Positions 9,363 to 40,883 of a stretch of 64,000 bases of DNA are shown piece after piece; the first letter of the stretch is position 1; the number at the start of each line of letters is the position of its first letter. The DNA is from Acorus gramineus (taxonomy: Eukaryota > Streptophyta > Magnoliopsida > Acorales > Acoraceae): the NCBI GenBank assembly GCA_030737835.1, contig CM060851.1, positions 5,670,615-5,734,614 on the forward strand, given 5' to 3'. The position numbers and the translations under genes are program-made. Under the pieces are notes generated by a model that had not been told where the DNA came from, did not search any database, and saw nothing but the letters and a program-made list of their open reading frames with translations.

Positions 9363-12232
9363 ATGAGCTTTGCTTTTAGAGGGACAAGAGCTGACATAGA
9401 GAATGGATTTCCTGGAATCATTCCAGAAAGACGTGGAATGGTAAGGTTCTTGATGTGTTTAGTTTTGTTTGTTTGAAATAGGCCATAAATATCGTGGGTG
9501 TTTTTTTTCCCTATATTTTGTTTATATGGCATCTAAATTACTATTTTTGTTATGTCTCAGCGCATGTATGCTGGGGGTCGGCCAGTTAACACTAATTCAA
9601 TGGCATTCCTTGTCACAGGTATCCTATATGCTTTAGAGTTGTTATTCTATTCTTTTGTTTCGGTTCTAACAACTGTTCATATTCTGCAGTTCTTCTCTTG
9701 TTTATGATTCTTAACTCCCATCAAATGTCTCCAAATTTTCTGGTACTAAATCACCTTCTAATGAATTCACTTGAGAATAATGCCAGTTTATGGTGTAAGT
9801 GGATGCATTATTGAGCTGTCTTCATCTTTTCTCCTGGTGTAGCTTTGGTTGGTTTTGGGTGTGTTTCTTCTTGCCACAAGTCTTAGGATGTATGCGACTT
9901 GTCAGCAGCTCCAAGCCCAGGCCCAAGCTCACGCTGCTGCTGCCAGTGGCCTGCTTGGAGGTACTGAATTACGGCTGCACATGCCTCCATCTATTGCCTT
10001 TGCAAGCAGAGGGCGCTTGCAAGGTCTCCGGCTCCAGCTCGCTCTTCTTGACCGAGAGTTTGATGACCTTGGTATGGAATTTTAATTAATTGTTATCCCT
10101 TAGCTGCTCAACCAACTTTCTTGATGGTTTCAGAACGTTTTAAAGAACCAACCTTTTATTATGTTGATTGCCTTTGGTGGCACTGGCTAATCCAAAGTCA
10201 TCAATTTAGAGAAGTTACAAATTATTTGTAGGATTTATCTGTCACCTTACTTGTACATTGATGATTTGGATTGTCTTTCAATAGGCTGTTTGAAGAAATA
10301 TGAGGATCATTGATATCAGAAATTGAAATCTTCACTTGCAGATTATGATGCTTTAAGAGCACTGGATTCTGAAAATTCTCCTGGAGCTCCTTCAATGAGT
10401 GAGGAAGAGATTAATGCTCTGCCGGTTCACAAATACAAGGCTCAGTCTCGTCATGGATCTTCTGGTGGCCCTCAAAGGCAACCTATCATTTTTTTTCTCT
10501 TTTCACTTCGATTTAAGTAAGGCATTTGACATTTTTCTGAGAAATATACAACTATTGTCACTTGCTCTTTTAAATAGGGAAGGGTCACCACAACAAGCAT
10601 CATCGTCAGCCACTTTGACTGAGGTAATCTTCATGTTCACCATTCAATTTGCAATTTTCCATGGTCAAATGCTTCATAAATACAAAAAATCCTTAATTTT
10701 TGCTTGCCTCTTTGCTGTGAGAATTTGTTATAAAATCAAATTTCAATTCCTAGTGGCATCTGGGCAGTTGCATTTTTGTTTCCTTGAGTGAAAGGAAGAT
10801 ATTTATTAGTTTATTTTAGAGAATGATAGTTTATTAGTTTTTTCTGATAAGAGGGAAATTTAAACTAAATTAAACATCTAATGCTTTAAGTTGGAGCGGC
10901 ATCCATTCGTTGTGCATTTAATAGCAAATCATTTTAGAGCGTTTTAATCTTGGTCAATGATTCTGTTTGCTTTCTTTTGTACCTTTGGCTTGTCCTTTGT
11001 TACTTAATTGAAAGAGGTAGCAGGCCTACCAATAATTCTCAATAAAAAAAAAATCTAGGTCAATGGATAGGAGAATCTGCAGACTAATGTACACAACGTC
11101 CAGTTGAAGCAATATAAGATTTCCATGATTAGAGTTAAATGGAAAATATTTGCTTTACAATATTTGTATTCTGAAACATCTGGTTGACTGTTTTACTAAT
11201 TCCTTGTGCTTGTATTGAGCAGAAAAAACTAGATTCTGCCCGGGCGGATGGAAGTGGAAAATCTGATGATGAACTGACATGTAGTGTTTGCCTGGAACAA
11301 GTCAATGTTGGAGAACTTATACGGAGTTTGCCTTGTCTGCATCAGGTAGCTGCTTTTATTTTTGAACTGTGTTGTACACCAATATTGTATAAAATTGGTT
11401 ATATTTTGGTAGCATTTTCCTGACACCTGTTTTTGTGTGATTTTTCTATGGGAATGCTTTCTTCTGAAAATCTTTAGGAAATGTCATGAACCCAATTGTA
11501 TTTGCAGTAAATATTTTTAATTTTTTTGTTCTCGAAAACTAATCAATTGAATGTTTGTAACTACTCAAAGTAAGAAAACTGATTTAATACAAGGATGGTT
11601 AAAACTGATTTAATACAAGGATCGTTATAAAATGCTATTCCATGTTATGAACATTATTTTTTCTTTGGCTGATCATACGCAAGATCAATTTTCTTTCTTC
11701 TTTTTTAAACCAAACTTTTATGATTTTGAAGCTCTTAATGACAAGACAATGACCATTTTTATTATGATTGTTATTTACTTTTTTTTTTCCATGGGAGTTG
11801 GAAATAATTGAATAAACCAAGGGCTGTCACAATGTTCCTTTTGTTTTGCATGCCTGGTTATAGAGGAAGTGGGTTTGTTGTTTTCAGAAACATTTTTGAA
11901 ATGTCATGATGAATGATGATGGTGTGATGAAGTTTGGGGAAGTTTTTTTTCTTCTGGAAACCTGAATAATGCAATGATACGATTACTTGCTTATTTACTC
12001 TTTTATAATTCAAATGCTATAACATGTAAAATTATTATGTCAGTATTCAAGAGATTTTTTTATTGTTCTATTGTCAATATTGTCTGACATATCTACCTTG
12101 TCACAGTTTCATTCAAGCTGCATCGACCCATGGCTGCGGCAGCAAGGCACGTGCCCTGTTTGTAAATACAAGGTGAGCTCAGGGTGGCAGGATGGTGAGG
12201 AGACTGGATCAGATGCTTCATTCATGGTGTAA
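9363..12232 (+). CDS. SDIR1: SDIR1-like RING-H2 E3 ubiquitin ligase
   Basis: Eight coding exons read as 9363-9440, 9561-9618, 9690-9742, 9843-10071, 10342-10464, 10583-10623, 11223-11345 and 12107-12232, giving 276 residues (Arabidopsis SDIR1 is about 273). The start MSFAFRGTRADIENGF matches the family N-terminus. Two membrane segments follow (about residues 40-58 and 63-82), then a coiled QQLQAQAQAHAAAA stretch, the conserved RGRLQGLRLQLALLDREFDD block and MSEEEINALP. The RING-H2 domain runs from C214 to C254 (CSVC, CLHQFHSSC, CPVC), and the tail ends ASFMV. SDIR1 is an ER-membrane E3 ligase acting positively in ABA, salt and drought signalling; that role is transferred from the family. The exon 5/6 junction (10464/10583) is the least certain; an acceptor at 10577 is an alternative. 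Confidence 0.93.
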
Positions 12233-12464
12233 CAATCACTTACAAAACATATTTAGTTGATGGTATCCTTAACCTTTGGCAGTTCAAGCTGAATTCCATG
12301 TTAGTGGAATTGTATAATCAATGTTTTCAGTATGATATATATGTTTTCATATATATCTATAAAAGTTGTTTCATGACCCAACTTTCATTGCTCAAAGATG
12401 AACGTACCATTTTCTGTATCAATGTCATCTTGGCCTCAACTCTGCTTCTTCAGTTTTGAGGGTC
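12228..12464 (+). repeat. SDIR1 3' UTR segment duplicated at 21998-22228
   Basis: The segment starting at the SDIR1 stop codon region (TGTAACAATCACTTACAAAA) recurs at 21998-22228 with small differences and a short indel near the TATATA stretch. Similarity ends abruptly at GAGGGTCT in both. Here it is the 3' UTR of SDIR1. The second copy has no SDIR1 coding sequence and marks the start of the second duplicated block. Confidence 0.9.
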
Positions 12465-14364
12465 TGTAGTATTGATGTATTTGACTGAATATCTATTTGT
12501 AAATATATGTCATGTGATTTAGTGTTTCATTGATTTCTATAATGGGCATGGTTAGGTTTTCTGTGTATCTTTAATAGAAAATGAATTATATTTTGAACGA
12601 GTTGAAGTGTATCTTTTCATTTTTTTTTTTTTGGCAGAGGGTAGGTGATGATGACAGGAATGACTGACTGAATGTATCAGCATTTTGAAACAAGTTTCTG
12701 TAGGAATTGTTCTAGGATGGGGGCCACAAAAAGGAAGATACCATCAAACTTCTATCCCACTTGTTATTCCAAGTTGCCAAAGTTGTTCCAGTGATTCAAA
12801 CTTCCCTACTTATATGGAAAATAACAGGTCTTGTGACTTTTGCTTCTGTGGGATCATAAATTCAAACCCAATAAGTGTTCCTGATATCTTCCCAAAATCA
12901 AACAGATATCATTTTGGGCTATAATTAGTGAACTTGCAAAATTTGACTTTCATCATGCCCGGGGGAAAAAAAACATCAACCCCTTCACAGTTCACATTGA
13001 CCTAAAATTTTTGGTCTCACACAACAAACAGAGAGAAACCATTGCATTCTCTATTCATTCATTCATTCACCACCACCACGACCACCACCTCTCCATTAAT
13101 AGTCCATCCAGTATGGTCTTTGATTCAATGCAATTAGGTAAGTGGGAGGACAGTTTATCTCCATTTTGTATAAAAAATGATTAGGATAAATTATGAACAG
13201 TTCTCCTAATTTTGAAATGAAAATGGAAATATTTTTTTTCTACTTAAAGGCTTGGATAACATTTATCGTAATTTTTTGTCTCAATTTTGACAAATGTAAA
13301 TATGAACAAATTTTATCATTTTTTTATCATTTAAAATTAGGACAACTTATCCTTAAAACCTTAACTCATCGCCAAACTTTAAAGAATATGTTCACATGCT
13401 CAAGTCTGACTTTGATCAGTTAATGATAAAAATAATTCTCAGTGAGTTATTCTACTCATCCCGTTTATTTAAATAAAAAATTGATTCGTTACATTGTATC
13501 TTATATCTAATCCACCCCACGAGTTCAACATACAAGATGTCTTTTATGTTTAAAAATAGTTTGACGTGAATCATTGTCCATCGGGAACCAGAAATCTTAT
13601 TTCTAGTCGACATAGACGATGTCTTCTATGTTTAATGTGGTTCGACATGGATCATGTCGACCGGGAAACCGGTGGATCAAAGACAAATGAAATTTTGGTT
13701 GATTATCAACATCACATCGCATATCGTGTATGGAATGACAATATACTTTAATACACTATGTATATGATAACCTATATTGATTTGGGTGTATGACGATCGT
13801 TCTTTGTTGGTGTCGTTAACAAAAAAAAAAACATTGAAGGGCTGGAATATATTGGATGAATCATTGACCTTCATGAACAGTAAAACAAATTAGTTTGTGG
13901 TCATTGGTTGTAATATATCAACATTGTGTCTTTCACTTTTATTTTCTAGATTCATAATATAAACACATTGGTGATTGGGTCACAAATATTATAATTCAAT
14001 AAGATTTTATTACATCAAATGTTTTAACACTTTATCATAAATGTAAGTCCAGGTCATCAATGTAATAGTCGACCCTTTTATTAACGGGTAAAACGTGGTA
14101 TGTGAACTCAAAAGGGATTAGGTTATGATTTGGATGCCAAACCTCAATCTCTGAAGATAAATTGGCATCCTTTTAACCATTGTTGAATTTATAAAAACCC
14201 TATGCTTATCTTGATCAATGAGGATTGGATTAGGGACCACAATCCATGGCACAGAGAAAAATATCCAAGACCTTGAGAGTGATATAGCAACCTATTTCTG
14301 TTCCTAGAGTTTTTGGAGAAAGATAATAAAAGAATAGTCATTGAAAGAGATTTTCTCATTCTTT
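12465..14364. other. intergenic, no gene; small direct repeat
   Basis: AT-rich sequence. Two imperfect direct copies of about 55-60 bp lie near 13531-13590 and 13615-13672; each contains GATGTCTT.TATGTTTAA, GTTYGAC and ATCGGG/ACCGGG. No frame is convincing, including 12685-12924. No RNA gene was recognised. Confidence 0.5.
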
Positions 14365-14383
14365 AACAACCACCCTAGCATAC

Positions 14384-14647
14384 AGGCAGAGATAGTCTTC
14401 CGAGCTCGACCATAAGGTCAACCATGAGGGGTCCCCAGTGGTCATAGCAAAATGGTTCATGGCTTAACGGTGTCACCCATAGGTCCTGAGTTCGAGTCTT
14501 GACGCTGACTTAACCATCTATTTATTGACGATTATTCAAAAGAATTTTTTGTGAGGTCGAGGCAAACATGCGGAGGTTGCCTTCCCAGCTCAACCGTAAA
14601 GTCAGCCACGGAAGGTCCCTGCGATATCATAAAAAAAAAAAAAAAAA
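14384..14647 (+). mobile_element. dimeric tRNA-derived SINE
   Basis: The main unit starts near 14433 (GTGGTCATAGCAAAATGG, A-box-like), has GAGTTCGAGTCTTGA near 14489 (B-box-like) and ends CAGCCACGGAAGGTCCCT plus a long A-run. The 49 bases before it (CTTCCGAGCTCGACCATAAG, CATGAGGGGTCCCC) match the 3' end of the same unit, so the insertion is a 5'-truncated monomer joined to a full one. Flanks repeat AACAACCACCCTAGCATAC at 14365-14383 and, with three extra bases, about 14648-14669. Duplication copy 2 has the uninterrupted site near 24115-24135. Confidence 0.85.
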
Positions 14648-14903
14648 AACAACCACCACCCTAGCATACCTATTGCATCACCCTATCAATCTAACAAAAC
14701 TAAAATTCCCTCAGCAAAGCCAACTTGGATTTTGACATGCCTCACTATCATTGTCAGCCAAAATATCTAAGTTAATTCAATGCACCGTGGTTGGAATACT
14801 GAGTCATTCGTTAGGCACAAAATCCATCTCTTGCTGGATCTCCAACTCAGAGCCCTTTTGACCTATTTGGTGGTCTTTTGATTGTAACACTCCCCAATTA
14901 TAC

Positions 14904-15095
14904 CCAGCAGTGACCATAGCATGATGGTAAATGTTTATATGTGTTAAAGGTATGTTTTAATATCGAGTCTTGACGCTAATTTAACCCCTGTGTATTTATG
15001 TGAATTTGAGTTTGAGAATACACAGACGAAGGTAGCCTATCCAACTTGACATTAGACCAGCTACATGGATACCTCCGTTATCGAAAAACAAAAAA
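14904..15095 (+). mobile_element. SINE-like retroposon
   Basis: It begins GCAGTGACCATAGCATGATGG. It contains ATCGAGTCTTGACGCTAATTT (a B-box-like core also in the element at 14384), a GCCTATCCAACTTGAC to CTCCGTTATCG tail, and a short A-rich end. It is most like the element at 1273. No equivalent is visible at the matching site in duplication copy 2. The duplication of target bases is unclear. Confidence 0.55.
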
Positions 15096-16297
15096 ATATC
15101 CCATGTAAAACAATTATCCAGTAGGAAATATATAAGCACCTAAGTTGTATGAAAAAGTGTGTTGATACACAGTAATTGATGTAGTCAAGTAGCGGACCAG
15201 AAATTTTTTTAAGAAGGATTTAAATTTAACAACTCATGTGTGTCTTGAAAACTTTTGTTATGATAATAAAAAGATCTCCCTTATCTTTTTCTATTTTTAT
15301 CCATTTAAATGATTAAAATATAGTATTTTTCAAAAAATGTATTATCTTAATTAGGTGGACGCTGAGTATCCTTGTGCCACTCAAACAATAACATATACAT
15401 AATTATCATTGTTGACTTTATCATTAAAATATTTTATTTCTCATAATCCTAAAAATTTAGGTAGATTTTCAAATTTGAAGCATTCATATAAAGAGTATTT
15501 CCAATTCTATACTTAAACCATTATCTAAATTTAAATTTGAATAAAAGTCACAAAAAACCCTCTCCAACCATTTATCTATCTCCATACCAAATCAAGCTTT
15601 TATTCAGATCTTTAGACTCAAATCTTTACCTAAATTTTCAATATTTTTTTCTCGTTATCTCTACATTTTCTTCCAATGTGACATTTTTTTTCCCTTCAAC
15701 TCTACCTTTAGTTGAATTATATTAGATGCCTTCCCACCCCCAAAATTTTCACCATCTCTTGAAACCTATATAAAAAAAATGGTATTCTTTCTTAAGTCTT
15801 TACCTTTGTTTTTTAATTTTTTATTTTTACTCCAATAAAAAATATTAATTTTATCTTTTTCAAAAAATTGGATTAGTATAATTTTAAATTTAAATATCTT
15901 GAAGGAAAAAAAAATTGAATAGTAAAAATGTTTGGGGAAAGACTTTGAAAATGTTTATAGGAAATAATTAGAAGAAAATATGAATTTTTAAAAAGATTTG
16001 AGTAAAATAAAAATGATGGTTAGAGACATATCATATCAAATTAAGTTTTTATTTAAATTTTAAGTAAAATTTAGATATGTTTTAAGTGAGGGGCGATTGC
16101 CTCAAACAGTTAATAAAACTATCTTCAATATTTTAAACGAAAGTTATGTACGACTTTTTTTTATGCCGCGTTCACCTAATTCAATTAAATAATAAAAAAA
16201 AAACCGAGAAGTGAAAGTAACGTTAACATCTCAACAATATCACTCCGTTATCTTCCATGCTATTATCCTTAAAAAAAAATAATTAAAATTTAATTAA
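15096..16297. other. intergenic, shared with copy 2, old repeat remnants
   Basis: AT-rich sequence partly alignable to 25200-25880. A segment starting AAGAGTATTTCCAATTCTATAC (about 15488) to about 16100 resembles the common plant AGAGCATCTCCAAC-type small DNA element and is present in both duplication copies. It therefore predates the duplication. No gene is supported. Confidence 0.45.
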
Positions 16298-16759
16298 AGG
16301 TACATGTGAACATCCATCTATTATTTTTAAGTCACTGTAAAATTTTAAGTATTTTTTAAATCCTTAAAATATTGAAAAATTATCTTTAAGCCCCTCCAGC
16401 TGGATATTGTTAAAAAATACCAAAGATGCCTCCATCCAATTATGTGAAAGTTAATAATGTACTGGGAAGTGCTAACAGTGTACTTGAGATACTTAACAAT
16501 GTATTGGAGAGTGTTTATGATGTATTGAAAGTCTGAAACAATTAGGCGGGGGGGGGGGGGGCACTCTATGCGAATGTTAACAATGTACAAGGAGTGTTAA
16601 CAGTGTACTGAAGTAATTGTGCGAGGGGAATTTTTGGTATTTTTGACAAGCATTCAGTTGAAGGGACTTAATGATAATTTTTCATTGTCTTAAATACCTA
16701 AAAAAACTTAGAAAAATTCCAGGAATGTAAAAATTATGGACGGGGGATCACATGGACCT
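16298..16759. mobile_element. long-TIR non-autonomous DNA element
   Basis: The left end AGGTACATGTGA and the right end TCACATGGACCT begin inverted repeats that can be followed for about 130 bp. Shared blocks include GAAAAATTATCTTTAAG on the left and, inverted, CTTAATGATAATTTTTC on the right. The core holds three or four degenerate repeats of AACARTGTAYTGRRAGTG. A C/G-run lies at 16545-16561. Copy 2 lacks it near 28080. Flanking AT-rich bases make the duplication hard to define. Confidence 0.65.
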
Positions 16760-17991
16760 CTAATTAATTTTTTAAAAAATTAAAGAAAATTATACATTCA
16801 ATTCATTGTACAACACGTATACATTCCTCAACTGTTTTATTTTTTTTCTTAAAATATATATACTCATCTAATAAAATACATTTTTAATTATAAACAAATG
16901 AAATATAAATCTAGATGAATCAATACATATTTTTTCTAACTATTTTTTTTTATTTTCTATATACTATAATAATAGAGTATATAATACACTAAAGCAATAT
17001 GAAATGTATAAACTACAAAACGGATGGTGGATCTATCAAAGCTATTGAAAAAAAACAAAGTACATAAAAAGTAGTTGTCACAGTAGTTGTCACACATATT
17101 GAGATGCATGTCGTGTCTCATAACCAATAAAATAAGGAAAACAATACATATATACATCCATGTCTGTATTTCCCAACCGTTTTAATTTTTTCAAAAATAT
17201 ATACTCTCCTAATTAAGTATGTATCATTATAAAAAAAATAAAATATATTTTTACATAAATCATTCCATATAAAAAATAAAAAAATTAATTTTTCATACAT
17301 GTAGTAAATATTTGTACTATATGGCTACAAAACAAATGGAATATATCATAACCCTTTAAAAAGTACAATAAAAAAAAAATTAATTGTCACATAATAATAA
17401 AATAAAATGACATTCATAAGTTAATGTTAGCCTCCATCAATCACTGACATAAATCCTAAAATCATTTCTAAATCTATTATCTCTAACTTTGATAGATAGA
17501 TCCAACAACACAGACATGATGCCATTTGAGATAAAAACAGCATTTGATTGTACGATTGAGTTTTGTTTGTGTTTGCAAGAAGCTGTTTCCACATTCATGC
17601 AATTAAACATTTTAACTGTAACAACTTACTACAGAGAGATTTTAGTTCAAAAGCTGAAGGAGTGAACTTCCTACATAAATAATTTTCAAATCCAAATTTC
17701 TACAAAATCAATTTTATAATAATACAATCAAATACATCCAAAGAAAACCTAAAAAATCTGAATAAATTTTTTATTAATATTATCAAATTCATAATAACTG
17801 GTATCTAACAAACCGTCCCCCAATTAAATAGGTACGTCCAGCAACGGAAACTTCAACGCCCCCTTAAAAAATATCCCAAAATCTGTCCTTCCTATTCTCT
17901 GGTGCAGTACACATTCCTCCAAGTCAATCAATCTAAATTTGTACTACACATATGATAATACACATATCCAGCTCAAAAAGCCCTCTTCACC

Positions 17992-18022
<31 letters not shown>
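16760..18022. other. ZIP-a upstream region
   Basis: AT-rich, alignable to 28080-29388 in copy 2. Just before the ATG is a T-run followed directly by an A-run of about 21 bases (about 17991-18022), which could fold back. No canonical TATA box was assigned. I saw no perfect zinc-deficiency element (TGTCGACA) in this stretch. Confidence 0.4.
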
Positions 18023-19907
18023 ATGGCCACCCCATCTTCCATGAAGCCCCTCAAACACCTAACCCTGACCCTCCCCATCCTCCTCTCCCTCCAAATCCTC
18101 CAAACCACCGCCCACGGCGGCTCCGACGACGATGACGGCGATGCCACAACCGGCAACCTCCATGGGAAGGGTCTGATCCTCGTAAAGATATGGTGTCTTC
18201 TCATCCTCCTCGTCTCCACTTTCGCCGGCGGCGTCTCCCCCTATTTTTACAGGTGTTGTTAAAATCAGAAATTAAAGAGAATGAATCATTTTTTTTTTAT
18301 TTTTTATTTTAGTTATAGGAGGGTATCGTTTGCCTTTTAAAGCAAAAGTTAATAAAAAAAATATTTAATTTTTCTTGTGATCAAAATTCTGATAACTTTT
18401 TTTCATTTATAAATTAGTGCATGAACACACCCAAAAAATACTAAAATTCTCTGATACATATAAATACCTCTAACAGGTGGAACGAGAGCTTCCTCTTGTT
18501 GGGGACCCAATTCGCCGGCGGTGTCTTCTTGGGGACCTCTCTCATGCACTTCTTGAGCGACTCGAACGAGACGTTCGGGGATTTGACGTCGAAGACGTAC
18601 CCCTTCGCGTTCATGCTCGCGTCGGCCGGGTATCTGCTCACCATGCTTGGGGACTGTGTGATTGCGGCGCTGACAAAGAGAGCTGGTGGTGGTGGTGGTG
18701 GGTCTCAGGTGAAGGTTGAGGGGGTGGAGAAGGGGGCGGCGGCGGAGACGGAGGCGGAGGCAGCGGCGGTGGTGGTGGTGGGGGATCACCACCAGCCGGT
18801 GTTTGTGAGGACGTCGAGTTTGGGCGATACGATTCTTTTGATCGTCGCGCTTTGCTTTCACTCTGTGTTTGAGGGGATCGCAGTCGGCGTTTCGGGTAAG
18901 ATTTCTGTTGTGTTCAGTGTAATTCAGTTGATTTGATTCGATTTTGAGTCAATCCTAATTGAATTATAGTGTTATTATATTTAATTCAAATATAAAAAAG
19001 AACCTGAATTTGAAATTGAATCTTTAAACTCATAGTTGAATCGAATTTGGTTAGTCAATCTGAATTGAATTAAGTCTGGTCCTGTTGAAATATATGAATT
19101 CAGAAAATATATCATTACAAATAAATAATTTTAAAGTATAAACTGATGATGAATGGATATTGATCTCAAAGATTACTAGAATAGAGAGTTTGGGAAAGTT
19201 AATAGTGAGTATAAAATATGGACAAATTAACAACTAACTAGTTTGAGAAGTTTGGTTCGATTTGATTCTGTTTAGTTCGATTTTTTGGAATGTGAAGTCA
19301 TTCCCGTTTTTTGTTCAACCTCTGATCCAACCAAATTAAATATTTTCTAGAAGAGAACTTTATAAGGAGGGTCCACACATGAATTTTCCATGCCTTCAAC
19401 ACATAAGGTTGTGCATAGGATGTGAAAAGTAAAAAAAGTACATATGAATATGGAAATCTTGATATCTGATTCGTATCCGATCCATTGACATCCTTACTAA
19501 CGCCTTATTCAGGCACCAAAGCGGAAGCGTGGAGGAACCTATGGACGATATGCTTGCACAAGATCTTCGCGGCCATTGCCATGGGCATTGCGCTCCTCCG
19601 GATGCTCCCGACGCGGCCGTTCCTGATGACGGCCGTCTACTCCTTCGCCTTCGCCGTCTCGAGCCCTATTGGGGTGGGCATCGGGATCGCGATCGACGCC
19701 ACCACGCAGGGCGCCACCGCTGACTGGATCTACGCCATCTCCATGGGCATAGCCACTGGGGTCTTTGTCTATGTGGCCATAAACCACCTCATCGCCAAAG
19801 GGTTCAAGCCGAGCAAGCCTTCCCGTTTCGACACCCCCACATTCAAGTTCTTGGCCGTGCTCGCCGGAGTTGGGGTGATTGCGGTTGTCATGATCTGGGA
19901 CACATGA
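18023..19907 (+). CDS. ZIP-family metal transporter, ZIP2/ZIP11-like, copy a
   Basis: Three exons (18023-18252, 18477-18895, 19513-19907) encode 347 residues (AtZIP2 about 353). There is an N-terminal signal/membrane segment, an acidic SDDDDGD stretch, [20 protein letters not shown], then [16 protein letters not shown], a family signature. The variable loop (about residues 144-185) is Gly/Ala/Glu-rich with GDHHQ, a likely metal-binding site. The transport-site motifs are [10 protein letters not shown] (H205, E209) in TM IV and [11 protein letters not shown] (H232) in TM V. The C-terminus ends VVMIWDT. ZIP2-type proteins move Zn/Mn/Fe into the cytosol from outside or from stores; the substrate here is inferred. 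Exon junctions are all GT-AG and keep frame. Copy b at 29389 is a tandem paralogue. Confidence 0.92.
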
Positions 19908-20774
19908 TTTGAATTAGTGACATTTTGGTCTGGTACATGTGAAATGAATTATATGGTTATAGAAGTGTAGTTTTTTTTTTCATTTTGAGGGGCATGTGCG
20001 CATGTTTTAATGAGAATATGCAGAAGAAAGTCGGTGTGGTACAAGGGAAAATTTTGTGCTGTTTTCACCGTGTTGTTCCGAGGATGATACCTGTGTCTAA
20101 TTAATTTTATGTGTGATTCATTGTTATGAATACAATTGGTGATGAAATGGGACATAGTCAGTGTTGAATTCCATCTGTCTTTGACATGTATACACAACTG
20201 ATTCAGTGTTAATACATGCATGATTTACGATTTTTTTCAATAAAGAAATAAACATGTAGAACAATTTGAAGAAAATAACGTACCACAATGGTACATGCTT
20301 CAATCTCACTTCTCTAATTAAGTATGTACGCCTATAATTTTTGATTTGTGTGTATAGAATACATTCAAATAATTGGAGTATTACATCTCGTTCAGTGACA
20401 CCCCATAATTGGATTCAAGAGATGCGAAAGTGGCAAAGGCGGTGGCAGGGATAGGGTAGGACTTGCACAAGCTGAATTCAAAAATGAAGGATGGCATAGA
20501 AGTTGAATTATGTATGCTGTTGTGGTGATCAGGAGAGTACATACTTGATGTGTTTGGATCTAATTGTGTTAAAGACACATGAGATTTTTTTTTTTTTTAC
20601 AATGACGCGAACAGGACGACACAATCCCAACATACTACTGATACGGGCTCATAAACCTATAATAAATTGTGTACCAAACCGACGATACCTAGCCCTTAAA
20701 GCCTTTTTTTTTTTTTTCCACTTTGTGTTAAGAGACACGTGAGAATCAGATGTCAACAACGTCATATAAAGATA
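19908..20774. other. ZIP-a 3' region
   Basis: Probable 3' UTR then intergenic sequence, alignable to 32325-33490 of copy 2. Shared anchors include ACATGTGAAATGAATTAT and GATTCAAGAGATGC. Short frames here have no recognisable product. Confidence 0.5.
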
Positions 20775-20953
20775 GTCCGAGGGTGGTAATTTTCTAGTTG
20801 GGTTTCTGTAGCTCGTTTTACTAGCTGCGGGCGGATCGCAAATCTCTTATGATCCAACCGCAGTTTTGTGTTTTTTTGTGTTTGGTTTTCTTGTTTGTTT
20901 CTCTTCTTCATCTCTGCTTTATTTGGGGCTTTCAGGCCTTTTCTCAAAAAAAA
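20775..20953 (+). mobile_element. poly(A) retroposon, copy-1 specific
   Basis: A 179-bp segment starting GTCCGAGGGTGG and ending CTCAAAAAAAA. It is flanked by near-identical 14-base repeats, GTCATATAAAGATA (20761-20774) and GTCATAAATATAAA (20954-20967). Copy 2 has the empty site GTTATATAAAGATAAATGCG near 33481. The A-tail and target duplication show L1-type retroposition. I could not see clear pol III A/B boxes, so it may be a SINE or a truncated LINE 3' end. Confidence 0.75.
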
Positions 20954-23008: not shown

Positions 23009-23040
23009 ATTATGATGTTATACATCCTCTAATTGTTTAT

Positions 23041-26174: not shown

Positions 26175-26197
26175 AATAAAATTATCTTCAATATTTT

Positions 26198-28980: not shown

Positions 28981-29388
28981 TCAGTATCCATCAATGATTA
29001 ACACGAGTCCTAAAAGGATTTCAAAATATATCATCTTCTAAACACTGATAGATGGATTCAACACTGACAGGATGCCATGTGAGATTAATAATAATAAAAA
29101 AACCCAAAAAAATCTGAATGGAAACCTTGTTAATATTATCAAAATCATAATAAACAAACTCCCTCCCTCAGTTAAATAGAAACTTCAACGCCCCCATTTA
29201 AAATCTTTCACAAGCTGTCCTTCCTATATATTCTCTCATGCAGTACACATTCCTCCAAGTCAATCAATCTTTGTACTACACACATATGACATATTAACAT
29301 ACATACATACCCATTGACATACATACATACATAACTCAAAAGGCCCTCTTCACCCTTAAAAAAAAAAAAAAAAAATCACCCATAAACA
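28981..29388. other. ZIP-b upstream region
   Basis: Alignable to 17430-18022. It contains a (CATA)n-like tract at about 29293-29330 and an A-run just before a short leader (ATCACCCATAAACA) and the ATG at 29389. The leader differs from copy a, where the A-run abuts the ATG. Confidence 0.45.
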
Positions 29389-32324
29389 ATGGCAACCCCA
29401 TCTTTCATGAAACCCCTTAAACACCTAACCCTAACCTTCCCCATCCTCCTCTCCCTCCAAATCCTTCAAACCACCGCCCACGGCGGCTCTCACGACGTCA
29501 CCACCACCACCGACAACCTCCACGGGAAGAGTCTGATCCTCGTAAAGATATGGTGTCTGCTCATCCTCCTCGTCTCCACCTTCGCCGGCGGCGTCTCCCC
29601 CTACTTTTACAGGTGATGTTAGAATCAGAAATTGAGGAGAATGATTATTTTTTTTAGGTTATCGGAGATATCCCAAATCTTTTTGAGGCAATACTCTGGT
29701 GTCTCATTAGCATTTAACTCAAATATATAATTCTGAAATACTCTAGTACATATGAATATCTCTAACAGATGGAACGAGAGCTTCCTCTTGTTGGGGACCC
29801 AATTCGCCGGCGGTGTCTTCTTGGGGACCTCTCTCATGCACTTCTTGAGCGACTCGAACACGACGTTCGGGGATTTGACGTCGAAGACGTACCCCTTCGC
29901 GTTCATGCTCGCGTCGGCCGGGTATCTGCTCACCATGCTTGGGGACTGTGTGATTGCGGCGCTGACAAAGAGAGCTGCTGGTGGTGGTGGTGGGGCTCAG
30001 GTGAAGGTTGACGGGGTGGAGGAGGGGGCGGAGGCGAAGGGGGCAGCGGTGGTGGTGGGGGATCACCATCAACTGGTGTTTGTGATGACGTCGAATTTTG
30101 GTGATACGATTCTTTTGATCGTCGCGCTTTGCTTTCACTCTGTGTTTGAGGGGATCGCCGTCGGCGTTTCGGGTAAGTTTTTTTATTGGGCTGTAATTCT
30201 GTCGATTTTGATTAGATTTTGGATCAATTTAAATTGAACTGAAATATTATTATATCTAATTTAAATCTTAATTAAACATGAATTTGAAATCAAATTATTA
30301 AATTTATAATTGAATTTGGTTAGTCATAAATCTGAATGGAATTTAACTAAATTTAAAAATTAGGTCTTGGTAAATTATTTGATTCAAAAAATATATCATT
30401 ATAAATAAATATTTTTAAAATGAAAAATGAAGGATGATGGATGGATAGGGTCACAATGATGACTAGAATGAAGAGTTTAATTATAGAGTGAATAGTGATT
30501 AATAAATATGAAGAAACAATTAACTAGTTTGAGAAGGTTGGTTCAATTTGGTTCAGTTTAGTTAGATTTTTTGGAATGTGAAAAATTAGTAATCAGAATT
30601 AATTTGGTTTACTAATTTTTCGATCTATAATCGAACCAAACCACATAATATTATCTCAATAAAAAAAATAACTTGACAAAAAATGAGATTCAATAGGATG
30701 CGTCAGTCTTCAACGAGGGACTATTTATATCAATAGTATTGTACTATCTATGTCACACACCCTCAACCCACATTGTAGTGACCAAATACTTTGAAAATTT
30801 TCGAATGTATAGAAAATTTCATCCATTAGATATCTCTTGTAAATATTGACCAAACAAATTTTTGTTCACTTTGTGTTTTATCTTTAAAATCCAATTTATC
30901 CTTTTGGTTGTAGATGGTTTATCACATTTTCTGGAATTAAAAAAATTAACTAGCCTTAATGATTTTCTCCTTCTCTACGATCAAATGAAAGGTTTTTAGT
31001 TTTTTTTGTAAATTCTCATAACATGTCAAAAAACCAAATCAATATTTTTTGTATTTTATTATATTTATCTAATATCGTCACTTGCAAATACCAAATATTT
31101 TTTTTGTAGAGAACTTTTTTTTTTTTTTTTTTTTTTGAAACAAGATAGATATTTACTATCCGATTTCATTTCTGAAAATCGACTTAAGCTCTGAAAGGGA
31201 TGGTGGGGGTTAAAGAGAGGGCAGTAAAGAGAACATTTTAAACATCTAAACATACAATGATGGTAGGCAGCATCCCCGGTTTGAAGTATCTAACACGACA
31301 CCGCCGTTCTCCAACCGGCCTGCTCCTCCCTTTACTCCCGAGATCGCGGGAGAGGAAGTCCCCCCCCCCCCCCAAGCATGTCTCCCAATCGTGAACGAAC
31401 CTCTCGAATATGTCCCCCATGTTTTTGACATACACGGTCACCCCCGAAAGATGACCTCGTTTCTTGCTCGCCAAATCGTCCATGCGGCCGCCGGCACTAT
31501 AACTTGCGAGATCTCCTTTGCCCTTCCAGGTTGTGGTGCCCTCTTTAGATCTCTCCCCGCCACCCACTGTTCCTCGAGATTTTGGACTTGGGTTGATCAA
31601 CCAGTCTTTCGCCCGACCTCCCGCCAGAACCGCCACACAAATACGCACTCACAAAATAGATGGTTGACTGTCTCCGGCGCCACCTCGCACAATACGCATG
31701 TCGTTGGTTCATTAACAACCCACTTGGAACGGTATACCTTCGTGAGTAGTCATCCCTGGAATAACAGCCACATGAGAACTTCTTAAGTAGGGTCTTCAAC
31801 GCATGAAGTCCATATGATACAAGAAAAGTCTAAAAAGGACATATGAATACGTTGATAAAAATACATGAATACAAATATTCATATATCCGACTCGTATCCG
31901 ATCCATTGACATCCATGCTAACGCCTGCTCAGGCACCAAAGCAGAAGCGTGGAGGAACCTATGGACAATCTGCCTGCACAAGATCTTTGCCGCCATCGCC
32001 ATGGGCATCGCGCTCCTCCGGATGCTCCCGGAGCGGCCGTTTCTGATGACGGCCGCCTACTCCTTCGCCTTCGCCGTCTCAAGCCCCATCGGGGTGGGCA
32101 TTGGGATTGCGATCGACGCCACCACGCAGGGCGCCACCGCCGACTGGATCTACGCCATCTCCATGGCAATAGCCTGTGGGGTCTTTGTCTATGTGGCCAT
32201 AAACCACCTCATCTCAAAGGGTTTCAAGCCGAGCAAGCCTTCCCATTTCGACACCCCCAAATTCAAGTTTTTGGCCGTGCTCGCCGGAGTTGCAGTCATT
32301 GCGGTTGTCATGACCTGGGACTAG
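29389..32324 (+). CDS. ZIP-family metal transporter, ZIP2/ZIP11-like, copy b
   Basis: Three exons (29389-29612, 29769-30172, 31933-32324) encode 339 residues. It is a tandem paralogue of the gene at 18023 with the same intron phases. Motifs are intact: [26 protein letters not shown] (H198, E202), [11 protein letters not shown] (H225), ending VVMTWD. The cytosolic loop is shorter than in copy a, the acidic N-terminal run is replaced by [10 protein letters not shown], and the potential glycosylation site N-E-T becomes N-T-T. Intron 2 is 1.76 kb because a LINE fragment sits in it. The first half of exon 2 is almost identical to copy a while exon 3 and introns differ much more. Function (divalent-metal uptake, probably Zn) is inferred from the family. 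Confidence 0.92.
31117..31773 (-). mobile_element. 5'-truncated LINE (L1-type) fragment in ZIP-b intron 2
   Basis: Inserted antisense to the ZIP gene: it starts with a T-run on + (the poly(A) tail) and has the 3' end of a LINE ORF2 on the minus strand. That ORF is broken across frames; about 31545-31799 carries remnants of the zinc-ribbon domain after reverse transcriptase ([13 protein letters not shown], in another frame a Cys-Val-Leu-Cys-type motif), and 31238-31648 the C-terminal tail. A perfect GAGAACTT duplication flanks it (31109-31116, 31774-31781). Copy a has the single site at 19353-19360. A C-run lies at 31362-31374. Confidence 0.88.
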
Positions 32325-33683
32325 TGATTTGAATTAGTTTCACTTTGGTCTGATACATGTGAAATGAATTATGGTTATACAGGTGTGGTGGCGGTTATTA
32401 TTGTTATTCCTTTTTATTTTTTCATAACGTATGTTTAAGAGCCCTGACAGTGTAGTATATACTACGCAATCATAGCATATGTAATTTTATTATAGTGTAC
32501 GACAATTTTTTTTTATCATTTTTTTATCTTGAAAAAAAATATTAATGTATCTCAGTATATATTTCATTTCATATAACAACATCTACTCTAATGGAAGAGT
32601 ATATGATTTAAATAAATAAAAAAAAAATCAGTGTAGACTACAATTAGGATTGCACAAGTGACTTGATGTATCATTTTTCATGTTTTAATGAGAATAAGCA
32701 AAAGTTAGCTAGTGTGGTACGAAGGAAAATTTTGTGCTGTTGTTTTTCACCATTCATTTTTTAATATAGAGATTTTATGTTATTGTTTGGAAGGTTGATT
32801 CTTACGTTATTCACTGTTATGAATACAATTGCTGATGAGATGGGACTTGATCATGCCTGTATTCTATCTGTCTATGTCAGTATCTAATGAGGGATTGATA
32901 GTTTGCATGATTGACATGTGAGATTTGAGAATAATTTTAGATTTGATTCTAGATCATAGGTGACATGTGACATTTGATTTAGTGTTTCCACATGCATGGT
33001 TTATGATTTTTTTTTTCAATTCAGATGGAAAGATAAATATTTTTAGAAGAATTAATTTGAAGAAAATAACATGCAACAATGGTATACATGCTTCAATCTC
33101 ACTTCTCTAATTAAGTATGTACTCATATAATTTTTTATTTGTGTGTATAGAATACATTCAAATAATTGTGTGTGAGACCCTGTAGTTGGATTCAAGAGAT
33201 GCAACAGTGGCTAAGGCAGTGGCAAGGTAGGATTGACTTATGTAGGCTCAGGAGAATACTTATTTGACGTCTTTGGATCCTTGTATTAAAGACATAAATT
33301 TTTTTTTTTTTTTGTATAAAAGCCCGGACAGGACGACACAATCCCTACACTACATACTACTAATACGGGCCCATAAATCTATAATAAACTATGTGCTAAA
33401 CCCACGATACCCTGCCCTCTACACATTAAAGCCATTTTTTTCCACCTTGTGTTTGACACATAGATGCCTATGTCAATAACGTTATATAAAGATAAATGCG
33501 TGATATTTTGATCAATATTAATTAAAGTGAAGTAATTTAAATTTTTTTTTTTTGTCAACAATGACACCCTTATTGGTCGGGGGAGTGTCTGTTTGTTAAG
33601 AGATGTTAGCAAATGATTAAAAATAGTGCATAAGTCAAGGTGGAGTAGAATTTTTTTATTTTTATTTTTACTTTAAAAAGGGC

Positions 33684-33714
<31 letters not shown>

Positions 33715-33786
33715 GATCGCACCCCATCGTTCCTCTATATATATATATACTTTGTACTGTCTTTTTTTTTTTTTTCTCTCTCTCTA

Positions 33787-33823
<37 letters not shown>

Positions 33824-34336
33824 CTCAGTATCGTTTCCTTGAGCCCAGATAATATAATGTCCTCCCATATAATTAATGTAAAACTCACAAAACTTTAATT
33901 CATGTTTATTCTCTCTCTGATGACTTTTCTATATAGTACTCACGCCCAATGTCACAATCTGGCTCCACCACCTAAGTTTTTGGTTTTCGTTTTTCATCGT
34001 TCATATTAGGGCTGCAACTTAGGTCGTGTTAAATCTGAATCTGACGGATTAAACTTGATTTTTACATAGGTTGGGTTGATCAAATCGAATTCGGGTTGAC
34101 TAATTCAGATTGTCTCACAAATCAGGTTGGGTTCGGATTGACCTCACTCACAACCCGACCCAACCCGAACCCATAAATTAATTTCAATTTACGGCCACTC
34201 GAAGCTCTAGTTCATATGGAATAGTGGGTGTGGGGGATAATATTTATCTATATTTTTATTTCAATTTTGATATACGTGCATAAAACTAAAATTAGTAGAT
34301 TTATTATCTCATAAAATTAAAATTATTTTTTCAAAA
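32325..34336. other. ZIP-b 3' region with microsatellites
   Basis: The first part aligns with the 3' side of ZIP-a. At 33683-33830 there are stacked (TA)n, (CA)n, T-run, (CT)n and (TG)n(TA)n tracts. At about 34009-34200 a segment begins AGGGCTGCAACTTAGG and has GGGTTGGG/CAACCCGACCC words, resembling sub-terminal parts of hAT MITEs. No gene is supported. Confidence 0.5.
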
Positions 34337-34579
34337 TTTTAACTAGGGCTGGTAAACGAGCCGAGCTTCGACCTGCTCAGGCTCGGCTCGTTTATTTTTA
34401 GGGTCGGCTCGGCTCGGCTCGTTTACAAGCTTAATTTTGTGTTCATGCTCAGCTCGTTGGGCTCGTGCAAAGCTCTGCTGAAGCTCGGCTCGACTCATGC
34501 TTGTTAGAAGCTAAAATTATTTTTTTAAAGCATTTTAGAAGTTAATTTTCACAAATCACAACACTTTGTAGATGTTCAA

Positions 34580-35100
34580 AATTCCACACTAATAAACAAC
34601 ATATTCAAAATAAACAAAAAATAAACAACATATTTAAAATTCATCACCTTGAACAACTCCAACAGTCAACACCAAACATATTAATCAAACAACCTTTCAT
34701 AATTCAACCACCAAACAACCTTTCATAATTCAACCACACTAATAACAGTCCACACTAATAAACAGTCCAGTGAATCCATACTAACAAACAGTCCACACTA
34801 ATAAACAAACATATTTAATAATGGATAACAGTCCATACTAATAGATAACAGTCCACACTAATAGATAACAGTCCACACAGACCACATTAATAAACAGTCC
34901 AGTGAGTCTAAACTAACAAATAGTCCACACTAATAAACAAACATAATAGATAACAGTCCACACAGACCACACTAATAAACAGGCCAGTGAGTCCAAACTA
35001 ACAAATAGTCCACACTAATAAACAAATATAATAGGTAACAGTCCACACTAATAGATAACAGTCCACATACCACACTAATAAACAATCCAGTGAGTCCAAA
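34580..35100. repeat. tandem minisatellite inside the hAT element
   Basis: Irregular repeats built from CCACACTAATAAACA, GATAACAGTCC and CAGTGAGTCCAAACTAACAA words, recurring every 30-80 bases. It lies between the transposase remnant and the left terminus on +. Array length differences of this sort are common near hAT ends; no role is implied. Confidence 0.75.
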
Positions 35101-35363
35101 CCACCTTGAACACCTCCGATCAACACCCTATAGATTACTGCATTGAACAAAAAAATAAAATAGCAAAAGATGCATAAGTTCCAACAATGGATTGATCTTT
35201 GACACAATGGATTCACACAGACAAACAAAATGCCAAAGATTTAAAATAAAAATGAGATTTACCTTTGTAGTAGTCTCTCCACCTTCAATGACAACTTGCA
35301 TGAATTCTTCCTCGGTCTGTACATATAACATACAAGATAAATGAGATACATATTATGTAATCA

Positions 35364-37432
35364 CTACGTTAATAGAAGAAATGTAGAATATATAATTATA
35401 CTTACATTTGATGACTCAACAAGACCAAAATCAGTACGTAACCAATCTCCAACACAAATTAAATCTTCGACTGTCTCGGGCTTCAATGAACTGCGGTACT
35501 GATCAAGAACTCGTCCTCCTGCACTAAAAGCAGACTCAGAAGCAACAGTAGTAGCAGGAACGGAGAGTATGTCACAAGCCATTTTTGATAGGTTACGAAA
35601 CTTGAGTGTATTTGCTTTCCACCAAACTAAAGCATCAAACTCATTATTCACATCATCTTCAGGCAAGTAAATCCCTTCTTCCAGATAAACATCCAACTCT
35701 GACTTCATTGGTTGAACAACATCTAACTGCTTGGCCCATAAATCAAATTCATTTATGCTCTTAGTTTTCCTCTTAGCAAAGGGAGGAACACTAGAGATAT
35801 TGCCACTACTTGATGCCACATCTTTTGATGCATAATCCTTGTACAGTTCATGTAAGTGATGACGCACAAGATCAATTTGCACCCTTGCTTCAGATGTAGA
35901 ATATATTTTGGGGAAACAAAACTCAATAAACATCATTTTATATCGAGGGTCTAACACTACAGCAATTGCCATCAATAGATTGCACTCCCCCCAATACTTG
36001 TCAAATTTTTCATTCATCTTCTCAGTCATTCGAATCATGTAATCTCTAGTATTCAAACACACTACATTCAATATTTCCTTTATTTTCCTAATCTCAGCAA
36101 GAAACAAATTTGAAGTAGGATAAGAACATCCTGAAAAAGCATTTGTTGATTCATTAAAAATCTCTAAAAACTTGCACACCTCCTCAGAGCGTGACCAATC
36201 CTCATCAGATGGCAACCATTTGTAGTTAGGATCCCTTTCTTTTTACCTTGGAAACACCTGTTTGAACTCAATGGCAGACTCTAACATTGCATATGTTGAG
36301 TTCCACCTAGTAGGTACATCTAGGATTAAGCGCTTAGAAGTAGGCAATTGCAATTGTTTCACAATTTCCATAAACTTGTGAAGCCGTGATGGAGACATTT
36401 TTATATACTTGACACTCTCACGCACATTTTCTATTACATCCCGTATTTCACTCAACCCATCTTGCACCATTAGATTTAAAACATGTGCACAACAACGGAC
36501 ATGAAAAATTTTTCCACCAAAGAAAAGGCTTTCTTTCACTGAAAAAATAATCTTTCAAATTTCTAATAGCCACATCATTTGCAAATCCATTATCTAAAGT
36601 GATAGTGGACACCTTGTTCTCAATCCCCCAATCAATTAGACACTTAAAGATGCTATCAGCAATGGCTACACCAGTGTGTGGAGGTGGTAAACAATAAAAA
36701 CTTAAAATTCTTTTTTGCAACGTCCAGTCTGAATCTAAATAATGTCCAGTCAAGCACATGTATCCAATGGTTTGATTTGATGTCTATAAATCAGCAGTCA
36801 AACTAAATCTGTCAATGCTAGAAAATGCAACTTTCAACTTTTCTTTTTCCATTGCAAAAACTTTCATACATCATTCTTCACGAATTGATGCTTCAATGGC
36901 TCAAACCTTGGGTTAAATGTTTTGAGAAGCAGCATAAAAAGCTCATGTTCAACTATTCTAAATGGATACTCATACACAATAATCATTTTAGTAAGAATAT
37001 CTCTTACCTTGTCCTTATCATACTTGTAGTTTGTTAACCCCCTCCATGAATTGCATCTGCCAACCCTTCCCAAGCCAACAATTTCTGCTTCTTGCTGCCT
37101 TGACCCGAGATACTGGCTAGACGAATTGTGCAAACTTTCAAGTGTCTTAACAGATGGGTAGTGAGGCCCCCTGGAGTCATATAAAATGGTTGGTTGCAGT
37201 ACTTGCACTTTGCCTTTTGGCTTCCACTTTCATCAGTTAATACTGAAAAATCTTCCCACACTTTTGATGTCCTCTTCCTTGTAGTTTTCTTTTCAGATAG
37301 TTGAGATGCCTCTTGAGAAGGTTAAGATACTCCTTCATTTGGGGTACAATCAGCTGTTGCAGCCTCTCCAGTTTGAGCCCCTCCAGGTTGAGTAATGGAA
37401 GCCATATCTGGTGGACTGGTAGTGGTCAGCAT
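35364..37432 (-). pseudogene. broken hAT (BED zinc finger / RICESLEEPER-type) transposase
   Basis: Minus-strand remnant of a ZBED-type transposase. From the N-terminus: a Met near 37432; a BED zinc finger with CKYC and HLLRH (about 37200-37130); the RNase-H-like core with HVRCCAHVLNLMVQDGL and DVPTRWNSTY; and the C-terminal hAT dimerisation region with ILSVPATTVASESAFSAGGR and SLKPETVEDLI (about 35450-35580). It is disabled by several lesions: premature stops near 37325, 36787 and 36240, and frame changes near 37040, 36866 and 36540. The element therefore cannot supply its own transposase. The family is also the source of domesticated genes such as DAYSLEEPER, but the lesions argue against domestication here. 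Confidence 0.9.
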
Positions 37433-38229
37433 AAACCTAAACAAAAGAAGTAGTCAACATTGTTAATCTACACAAAAAAAAAGTGGGACTGAAAGAGTTA
37501 TCTAAATAAGAAAGTCTAAGTATGTATTCTCTGATGAAATTTATACTCCAATGAACCATATAAACCCACTTATAAAAATATAAAAAGTTATATGCTTCAT
37601 CATTGCATGGGGGGGCATAAACCTAAATAAGAAAGTCTAAGTACATGCTTGACAATGATAATCCATGGTGTCATACATAGGAGTATGCTAAACATGAAGT
37701 AAGGTACAAACGATAATGAGTTTCAAAACTCTCCAATACACAATTCAGTTCCTATCATTCATATCATTCCACAATTCAGTACAAACGATAATGAGATAAA
37801 CATATACACACAACATTTATATCTCTGTCCCGGACCAAAATTCAAAGCCATGACCCTATAATACTAAGCTACTGGTGAATCAAAATATCTAGCTAATGAT
37901 ACAAAATGCAGGTGGTGATAATTGATAAAAAGGGGATCAAATAACCATAACATGTTACAGGGGATCAAATAATATGTGCCCATATTAGATGCATTTACAT
38001 AGTATAAATAAAAAATTTGAGCACTCTGTTAAAAAAAACCTTAAATCAACAAAGCTACAACAATGGAATCCAGTAAAAAATAAATAAACCCTAGATCTAC
38101 AAAATAAATCATCATGGATGGACTATGACGAACCTTACCAGGTTGATCGCGGCGTCGGGGAGTTCGTGGGCTGCGGTGGTCGGGGAAGGCGAGAGGCGTG
38201 CGCGGGGAGGGCGAGCGACGTCGGGGTTG

Positions 38230-38277
<48 letters not shown>

Positions 38278-38670
38278 CAAGACGCCGAGAGATTACGCCG
38301 AGTGATTCGCGAGAGAGGGATCGGCAGAGATGGGTCGCTGGTCAGCTAGGGTTTCCATTGATGAGAGATTGAGATTTGAGAGTCGAGAGACTTGAGAGGC
38401 TGAGACTTTGAGAGTCGGGTAGTCGGGCTGCGCAGTCGGGTGGTCGGGTTGGGTGGGCCTGGGCATTCGAGTAGACTAGTCGGGATGGGCTAACACAGTA
38501 CCACTAGTGGGCTGGTAAACGAGCTCGGCTAAGCTCAGGCTCGGCTCGTTTAGAAATCGAGCTTTAAAATTTGTTCAAGCTCGGTTTGTTTATCTAATCG
38601 AACGAGCATGAACGAGCTTTAACCGAACCGAGCCGAGCTGCTCGACTCGTTTACCAGCCCTAATTTTAAC

Positions 38671-39591
38671 CCCTTTTCAACCAGCCCTAGGTTACAGAAG
38701 TGTGGTCGGACGATCTCCCATGGACCACTATATGTATTTTTAGATCAATTAATGCAAGTTTAATTAACATGAGCCAACGAATTATTTCGGCTTCATTCAT
38801 ATCACATGACAAAGGATAAGAAAATGATATGTCTATCCTTATGTGCAATCCCATCCGCAGCTTTCACCTTTTTCTTATAAATAAATATGCACCTATCAAG
38901 TGAAGTGCATACTAATGCGGCGTGGCCCTTCGCAACCTCATTCTTGACTTCTATCTTTCCGTCCATCTATCGATCATGCGAGGACTGATAGACGGTGCAC
39001 CTTATCAAGCGCATTTCCTCTCTATTATAAGAAGTGAAATATACACTTAGATATATTAGTGTATTTTAAAAAAATATATATATTTTTAACTTTTATACAC
39101 AGCGACAGCATATTTTATATTGCATTATCACAGTATTAACACTCCAAAAGATATTATCCAGGTCAATGCAGAAGAAAGAATTAAACAAAGATCGAAATGA
39201 AAATGAATGCCTTCTCAATTCAGTACTTGTGAAATGCAATTCATACATGTTTTTACCTCTTTTATTAAATCCTATGGAAAAGGAATGAATTTTATTGACA
39301 TCATATAAATTTTTATTTATATCTTATTTACATACACACCCTTACAAATTTTTTTTCTAAGATTGATATTGATAGTGGGAACCGGGAAAGATGGGAAAAT
39401 TATAAGATTGATAATGATATGCAACTCGGGTCGGAGTTTCCAACAGAGAGAAAGGGCAAGATTAAACGGATCATCCACAGGAGTAGAGAGACCGGTCTGG
39501 GCTCTCTTTTGGGCACATAAGGCCTAGAGTCCACAAATTGATCCTATAGGTGTGGTAAGACAGTAAAATGATACTCATTCATTTTTGTAAT
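38671..39591. other. intergenic between two transposons, copy 2
   Basis: No gene. From about 39360 it aligns with copy 1 at 21215 (GATTGATAATGATATGCAA, GGGTCGGAGTTTCCAAC, GGCCTAGAGTCCACA). The part before 39360 has no copy-1 partner. Confidence 0.5.
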
Positions 39592-39600
39592 TATTTTATT

Positions 39601-40525
39601 GGTTTTTTTTTTTTTTTTTTTTGCATATATACCATTGAAAACTATATTATTTATTTTTTTACTATCACAAATAGTCTATTTATTTGTATATCATTAAAAT
39701 GTTTCTTAATGAACAAATGTGTCATTCCGTCACTTTTTAAAACCAAGATAAACTTAACTAGAGTTAATTTTCTAAACAATAATTAAAAATAACAAAAATA
39801 ACCTTAGATATGATATCTTCTATAATGTAAATAATTAAACACAACAATATAATTGATTTCTTATTCTTTCCAAATTGTACATGTGCTTTTTTTCTTCCTC
39901 TTCCTTTTTCTTTATGAATAAAGAGTTAAGGGTTTTTTACTCCTTCATCAACTATGGTGGATTTTATCATTCTTCAACAACAATCATTAACGTGGTATTT
40001 TAATGTATAATATATAGATCAATTGACTCCATATGATTTTTGGCAATATGTTGCATGACGGGGGCTTTTTTTTTTATAGATTAAAATGTGTTTTATCTTT
40101 ACTTAGGCTCTTGGGGTTCAAATCTAATTGAGGATTGTGTGCTTACATGAGTTGTGACTTGTGAGTTAAATTTTTTATGATATCTCTTTTTATGGTGGCT
40201 ATCTTTTATGTTTTATATGAATTAATTTGTTTTTATAATAAAATTTAATTCTTTTTTTTTAATGGTATAAAAATAAATATAATTTTTTGATGGAATAAAA
40301 ATAAATACTATGTTTTGTAATGGCCAATATGAAAATAAAAAATTAAGGATATTTTAGTAATTTCCTCATGACTTTAACGGTGTGAGTAAAAAATTTGATG
40401 GAATTTAACTAGAATGATAAAAATGCATAATTTTAAATATTTTAATGGTATACAAATAAATAGACTATTTGTGATGGTAAAAAAATAAATAACATGTTTT
40501 TCAATGGTATATATGCAAAAAATCC
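39601..40525. mobile_element. non-autonomous Mutator-like element with ~80-bp TIRs
   Basis: A 925-bp element. The left end is GG, a T-run, then GCATATATACCATTGAAAA; the right end is its inverted form, TTTTTCAATGGTATATATGC plus AAAAAATCC. The inverted repeats stay alignable for about 80 bp (CACAAATAGTCTATTTATTTGT inside). A perfect 9-bp duplication, TATTTTATT, flanks it (39592-39600, 40526-40534). Copy 1 has the uninterrupted ATTATTTTATTATAA near 21403. No transposase frame is present. Confidence 0.9.
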
Positions 40526-40883
40526 TATTTTATTTTAATTTTTTTGAAGCTATGTATTTTTCTAATGAGATAAATATCCTTACAAAAGATGCAATAGTAC
40601 TAGATGAATTGAATGCTTGTATTTTTATATTTTTTTTAATACATATATAAAAGTTATATATTGTATTAGAGATTTCACACACTGCATCAGGATTACAGGA
40701 ATAACTACATATCTTAGCGCATTGTAAATAAAGCATAAATCAAATAGGATGTTGATACACTTGGTCATTGCTTCAATCACTTTTGTAATGATGTTTTTTC
40801 TAATCTAGTATATATTACGTTGGAGTTGTATATATGAACATAGTGGAACATGCATATATTTATACGACGGTTTCATATACTAC

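Follow-up and report, generated by a model that had tools for sequence, protein, structure and literature searches.

A probable old head-to-tail duplication from the last codon of an SDIR1-like gene to beyond a neighbouring ZIP gene in Acorus gramineus

Tandem duplication is an ordinary and well known process in genomes. The term appears in papers on the plant ZIP family, and kochia EPSPS is an example of tandem duplication mediated by transposons or repeats (PMC6808082). The locus described here is a fresh instance of the process. It lies in a stretch of 64,000 bases (C5:5670615-5734614; 36% GC, no N), referred to below as the window, which holds two ZIP genes and, between them, an orphan copy of the SDIR1 3' UTR. 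The evidence supports tracing all three to a tandem duplication with its ends at the SDIR1 stop codon and 2.1 kb downstream of that of ZIP, very probably an old, head-to-tail one whose left end lies within the last codon of the SDIR1-like gene.

The duplicated unit and its junction

The genes of the window and the parts of the duplication are as follows.

2847-4232: aspartic protease (Pfam TAXi_N, TAXi_C, Asp)
9246..12232, plus strand: SDIR1-like RING-finger E3 ligase gene (from ORF pieces, exons approximate; stop codon TAA at 12230-12232)
12228..12465, plus strand: end of the last Val codon, stop codon and 3' UTR or downstream part of SDIR1, the source of the orphan (self-comparison and junction letters)
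12228..21995, plus strand: copy 1 of the duplicated unit, 9,768 bp
18023..19907, plus strand: ZIP copy 1 (exons 18023-18252, 18477-18895 and 19513-19907; 347 aa, intact in haplotype A)
21996..21997, no strand: duplication junction, two bases GT (self-comparison and letters; identical in a second contig)
21998..40883, plus strand: copy 2 of the unit, grown to 18,886 bp through later insertions
21998..22225, plus strand: orphan SDIR1 stop codon and 3' UTR with no SDIR1 gene ahead of it (11 substitutions at 226 aligned sites relative to SDIR1's own)
29389..32324, plus strand: ZIP copy 2 (exons 29389-29612, 29769-30172 and 31933-32324; 339 aa, intact)
44887-45924: Pfam match of a multicopper oxidase (start near 43.2 kb inferred from ORFs)

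An earlier note on this DNA had proposed that a block running from the end of SDIR1 to beyond the ZIP gene is present twice in direct order, and self-comparison of the window together with a sensitive search bears this out (12228-21995 against 21998-40883). In the self-comparison 12228-12465 matches 21998-22225 at 89.6% and 21807-21995 matches 40691-40883 at 81.7%, and between these two end pairs the ZIP exons and the intergenic and intron blocks keep their order in both copies. The sensitive search placed 14 of the 23 plus-strand matches on one collinear chain covering 4,784 of the 9,768 bases of copy 1; a control with copy 2 reversed gave 2 matches and 257 bases, and the collinear similarity sought outside the ZIP exons and the UTR is thus present. 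The copies are adjacent, in the same orientation and collinear beyond the gene, as befits a tandem segmental duplication. Around half of copy 1 lies off the chain, and there is one conflict of order, between 14431-14640/22802-23009, which is in the chain, and 14113-14383/23887-24134. The stretches 12466-14112 and 22226-23886 have near-equal lengths and occupy corresponding places without detected similarity, and approximately 13443-14074 belongs to a repeat family present dozens of times across the genome.

Both breakpoints can be placed to the base. The left one (12227/12228; ...TTC ATG G/TG TAA, the slash marking the break) falls within the last Val codon of the SDIR1-like gene, and the right one lies at 40883/40884 (...TTCATATACTAC/ATCATTG). 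At the junction copy 1 ends at 21995 (...TTCATATACTAC), GT occupies 21996-21997 and copy 2 runs from 21998 (TGTAACAATCAC), the letters across the join being CTAC-GT-TGTAAC. The earlier note had seen the end of copy 1 meet a second SDIR1 3' UTR at 21995-21998, which stands, but its second range began at 21996, two bases ahead of the actual start of copy 2. The unit's right end thereby meets its left end with 2 bp between them, the sequence that ends at 21995 being the one that ends at 40883, and the start at 21998 being that at 12228. The GT represents either two added bases or a unit that starts at 12226 with one base changed since; a join of ends, or a switch of template, would leave either.

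By eye, and in the self-comparison within the window, the sequences on either side of the unit (before 12228 and after 40883) look unlike each other. Comparison of the letters at the junction revealed no microhomology at the join, and in the self-comparison of the window no repeat was seen to link the two flanks. Because the flanks look unlike and the junction carries at most two extra bases, the likeliest mechanism is template switching between sister chromatids or the joining of non-homologous ends. Unequal crossing over between repeats in the flanks is not supported, given how unlike the flanks look and the lack of a linking repeat within the window. A retrocopy is ruled out, since both ZIP copies have both introns and the flanks were copied too. 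Searching the genome with the junction also returned two short matches elsewhere, of 44 bases on C8 and 35 bases on C32, which end about 44 bases before the junction.

If the duplication took place in this way, the segment from the last SDIR1 codon to past the ZIP gene would have been copied head to tail by one of these two processes. The unit took in the entire SDIR1-ZIP intergenic region, so the new ZIP gene retained its introns and upstream DNA. SDIR1 remained single, since no more of it than the stop codon and 3' UTR lay in the unit. Both ZIP copies have since been, on the whole, under purifying selection, and the hAT transposon and LTR element described below entered copy 2 later.

Haplotype copies and gene content

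In the genome searched (398.6 Mb in 137 contigs), the junction query found a 97% match 100 kb downstream. Window coordinates 7134-97106 (C5:5677748-5767720) are repeated, with insertions and deletions, at 107107-192394 (C5:5777721-5863008); exactly 10,000 N lie between them (C5:5767721-5777720) and both copies of the locus are flush with the edges of this gap. The two locus copies, A and B, differ at 1662 of 73,381 positions (2.3%), a low estimate drawn from 22 blocks of at least 300 bases and more than 88% identity (74,182 of 89,973 bases). With both copies flush against the gap and a divergence plausible for alleles, the best reading is that the locus was probably doubled through overlapping, uncollapsed haplotype contigs, and we refer to A and B as haplotypes accordingly. 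The same junction is found in haplotype B (121982/121985 in window coordinates), hence the duplication is older than the split of the two locus copies. Users of the assembly should be warned that the locus, if annotated naively, would yield two SDIR1 and four ZIP genes. Divergence between the haplotypes peaks at 21000-30000, mostly in copy 2, at 4.9-6.3% per 3-kb bin compared to the mean of 2.3%.

Along the window the gene order is aspartic protease, SDIR1-like gene, ZIP copy 1, orphan UTR, ZIP copy 2 with its transposons, and the multicopper oxidase, which is presumably a laccase. No known structured RNA or tRNA was detected in the window using Rfam at gathering cut-offs and ARAGORN with the bacterial code. 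The RING gene, a putative SDIR1, has a zf-RING_11 match in one exon (11175-11420, E 1.1e-4, below the Pfam cut-off), and the other exon scanned hit no family. Its exon 9843-10082 has two matches in the genome, one for each locus copy, and the search with this one exon found no further SDIR1 beyond the haplotype pair.

The ZIP genes are identified by PF02535 above Pfam's curated cut-off, with matches to exons 2 and 3 of copy 1 (none to exon 1 alone) and to exon 3 of copy 2. Gene models are complete for copy 1 in haplotype A and for copy 2 in both haplotypes. The haplotype B allele of copy 1 lacks 1 bp of exon 2 (the counterpart of 18477-18895, at 118452-118869 in window coordinates), which reflects either a null allele or a consensus or base-calling error. 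Copies 1 and 2 are separated by Ks 0.184 and Ka 0.046, and across the haplotypes Ks between the copies is 0.184-0.204 and Ka/Ks 0.205-0.249. A ZIP gene on C4, 69% identical in exon 3, served as outgroup: among 7 fixed differences in exon 3, three look derived in copy 1, two in copy 2 and two in neither, while the 9 in the exon 1-2 piece divide into three, none and six, respectively. There is no clear asymmetry between the copies in derived changes over these 7 and 9 differences. Other clusters of ZIP matches lie on C1 near 17.2 Mb and on C5 near 27.6 Mb, so tandem ZIP copies are not unusual in this genome. The tandem duplication explains why two divergent, selected copies of a metal transporter gene stand beside an apparently single-copy SDIR1.

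Copy 2 is longer than copy 1 because three elements lie inside it.

26198..27934, no strand: small LTR-type element, 1.7 kb, in copy 2 of haplotype A only (180-bp direct terminal repeats; 5-bp target duplication ATTTT)
34344..38662, minus strand: hAT DNA transposon, 4.3 kb, in copy 2 (8-bp target duplication ATTTTAAC)
near 39617-40522: inverted-repeat element, in copy 2

The hAT element contains pieces of a transposase on the minus strand (35364-37321; Pfam hAT-like RNase-H, Dimer_Tnp_hAT and zf-BED), and two of its parts, 34787-37143 and 37672-38470, also align in haplotype B. At the position of the LTR-type element haplotype B has a clean empty site. The terminal repeats of that element are only 88% identical, making them more diverged than the haplotypes despite its presence in haplotype A only. 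Another small LTR element (TGTTGGG...CCCAACA, with a 5-bp target duplication ACTCT) is found at 48737-50703 in haplotype A, where haplotype B has a single LTR copy.

Divergence between the copies and alternative readings

At noncoding sites the two copies of the unit differ by a Jukes-Cantor (JC) distance of 0.21-0.22, compared to 0.023 (copy 1) and 0.044 (copy 2) between the haplotypes. The divergence of the copies far exceeds that of the haplotypes, and the duplication is therefore old. A typical rate is about 6.5e-9 per site per year, which would loosely place it some 15 million years ago, or more if the lineage is slow, an age that depends on the rate assumed. Over 19 blocks, 513 informative sites group copy 1 against copy 2 and the other two groupings have 1 and 4, counts to which block 14431, mis-projected for copy 2 of haplotype B, adds a single site, and in which the projection of two other blocks spans only 70-80% of their length. 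Recent gene conversion between the copies within a haplotype is unsupported by this 513:1:4 distribution.

The earlier note's further claim, that one event explains both the two ZIP genes and the orphan SDIR1 3' UTR, agrees with the outer ends, the junction and the collinearity, but sits less easily with a divergence that is uneven along the unit. The left 3 kb or so, including the orphan 3' UTR, has only about a third of the divergence found in the remainder of the unit. In the UTR pair 11 of 226 sites differ (0.049), and blocks 14113, 14651 and 15128 give 20/246, 15/208 and 10/93, against values of 0.138-0.340 in all but one of the 16 noncoding blocks from 15381 on. Summed, the four left-end pieces give 56/773 (0.07) against 689/3302 (0.21) for the rest, block 14431-14640 being omitted from these counts and the next. 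For the UTR by itself, the 19 noncoding blocks outside it differ at 734 of 3849 sites (0.19), and the UTR departs from this value (Fisher p 1.5e-9). A single neutral event predicts equal divergence throughout, so these uneven values do not fit one. If one event is to explain the unit, the left end has therefore probably undergone gene conversion since, or been held under constraint. Were SDIR1's own UTR alone fully constrained, half the divergence would be expected there, and 11 or fewer differences would then have p about 0.01; block rates range from 0.069 to 0.340 and the sample is small. The similarity at the left end may thus stem from old gene conversion, constraint or both.

The alternative that survives best is a refinement of the main reading, namely a history in two steps in which the duplication was followed by conversion between the copies over approximately 12228-15224 before the haplotypes separated. 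We take this possibility seriously, although we would stop short of calling it probable. It would account for the low left-end blocks next to the higher values of nearly all blocks from 15381 on, and block 14651 in particular combines ordinary divergence between haplotypes (8/205, 6/227) with low divergence between copies. However, the informative sites reveal no tract common to both copies within one haplotype, the UTR is low between haplotypes as well (0/238, 2/218), which fits constraint better, and near the right end block 21232-21403 is also low (11/159). A stronger form of constraint, that the orphan 3' UTR is itself under selection, e.g. as a regulatory sequence for the downstream ZIP gene or to end transcription of the upstream one, we consider improbable; were it true, the 3' UTR region of SDIR1 would also serve the neighbouring ZIP gene.

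A further alternative concerns the ~90 kb repeat, which could be a true recent segmental duplication instead of a pair of haplotypes. Its copies are in tandem order on one scaffold, and a true duplication with an assembly break exactly at its junction would look alike. Against this, the copies stop precisely at the edges of the 10,000-N gap. For comparison we turned to a region of C10, chosen for two equal weak ZIP matches, below the cut-off, that lie 300 kb apart and whose main blocks are 97.3-98.0% alike. Two of 30 probes of 100 bases there were all N, as were 12 of 18 finer probes and every probe inside the gaps. This locates two gaps, each measuring exactly 10,000 from edge to edge. Beginning at its very first base, the contig that follows the second of them matches C10:4501243-4502021, further back on C10, at 99%, which again favours haplotype overlap. 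The other three C10 edges gave, in turn, a repeat with at least 40 matches, broken matches, and a match of the whole 722 bases to two other places on C10 (99% and 98%) and to C6 (96%); this last edge thus has more matches than two haplotypes give, which favours true duplication. On the other side, ~9.8 kb of the 1.0-Mb contig C79 aligns to C9 at 98.1%. Taken together, we regard a true 90-kb duplication as very unlikely, and retain overlapping haplotype contigs as the origin of the repeat. The regions C10:4501243-4780000, and C9:9720400-9730399 with C79:340000-349999, are other probable haplotype overlaps or alternative contigs.

That the duplication or its junction is itself an artefact of assembly, at 21996 or elsewhere, has next to no probability: the assembly does seem to hold uncollapsed duplicate sequence around the locus, but copies 1 and 2 are ~19% apart at noncoding sites, far above the difference between contigs, the window contains no N, and the identical junction occurs in the two contigs.

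Comparison with known tandem duplications

The kochia EPSPS locus (PMC6808082) resembles this one in having direct-order copies of a gene-bearing block. It differs in that here no repeat common to the outer breakpoints is seen in the letters compared or in the self-comparison of the window, and there are only two copies per haplotype.

Compared to tandem gene duplication in plants generally, as in the ZIP family, the likeness is close: a complete gene was copied head to tail with its introns and flanks, its copies are under purifying selection, and transposons have inserted. Where the present locus differs is that its breakpoints can still be read to the base, one of them lying in the last codon of the neighbouring gene, and it is in this respect that it provides a clean example of an old tandem duplication.
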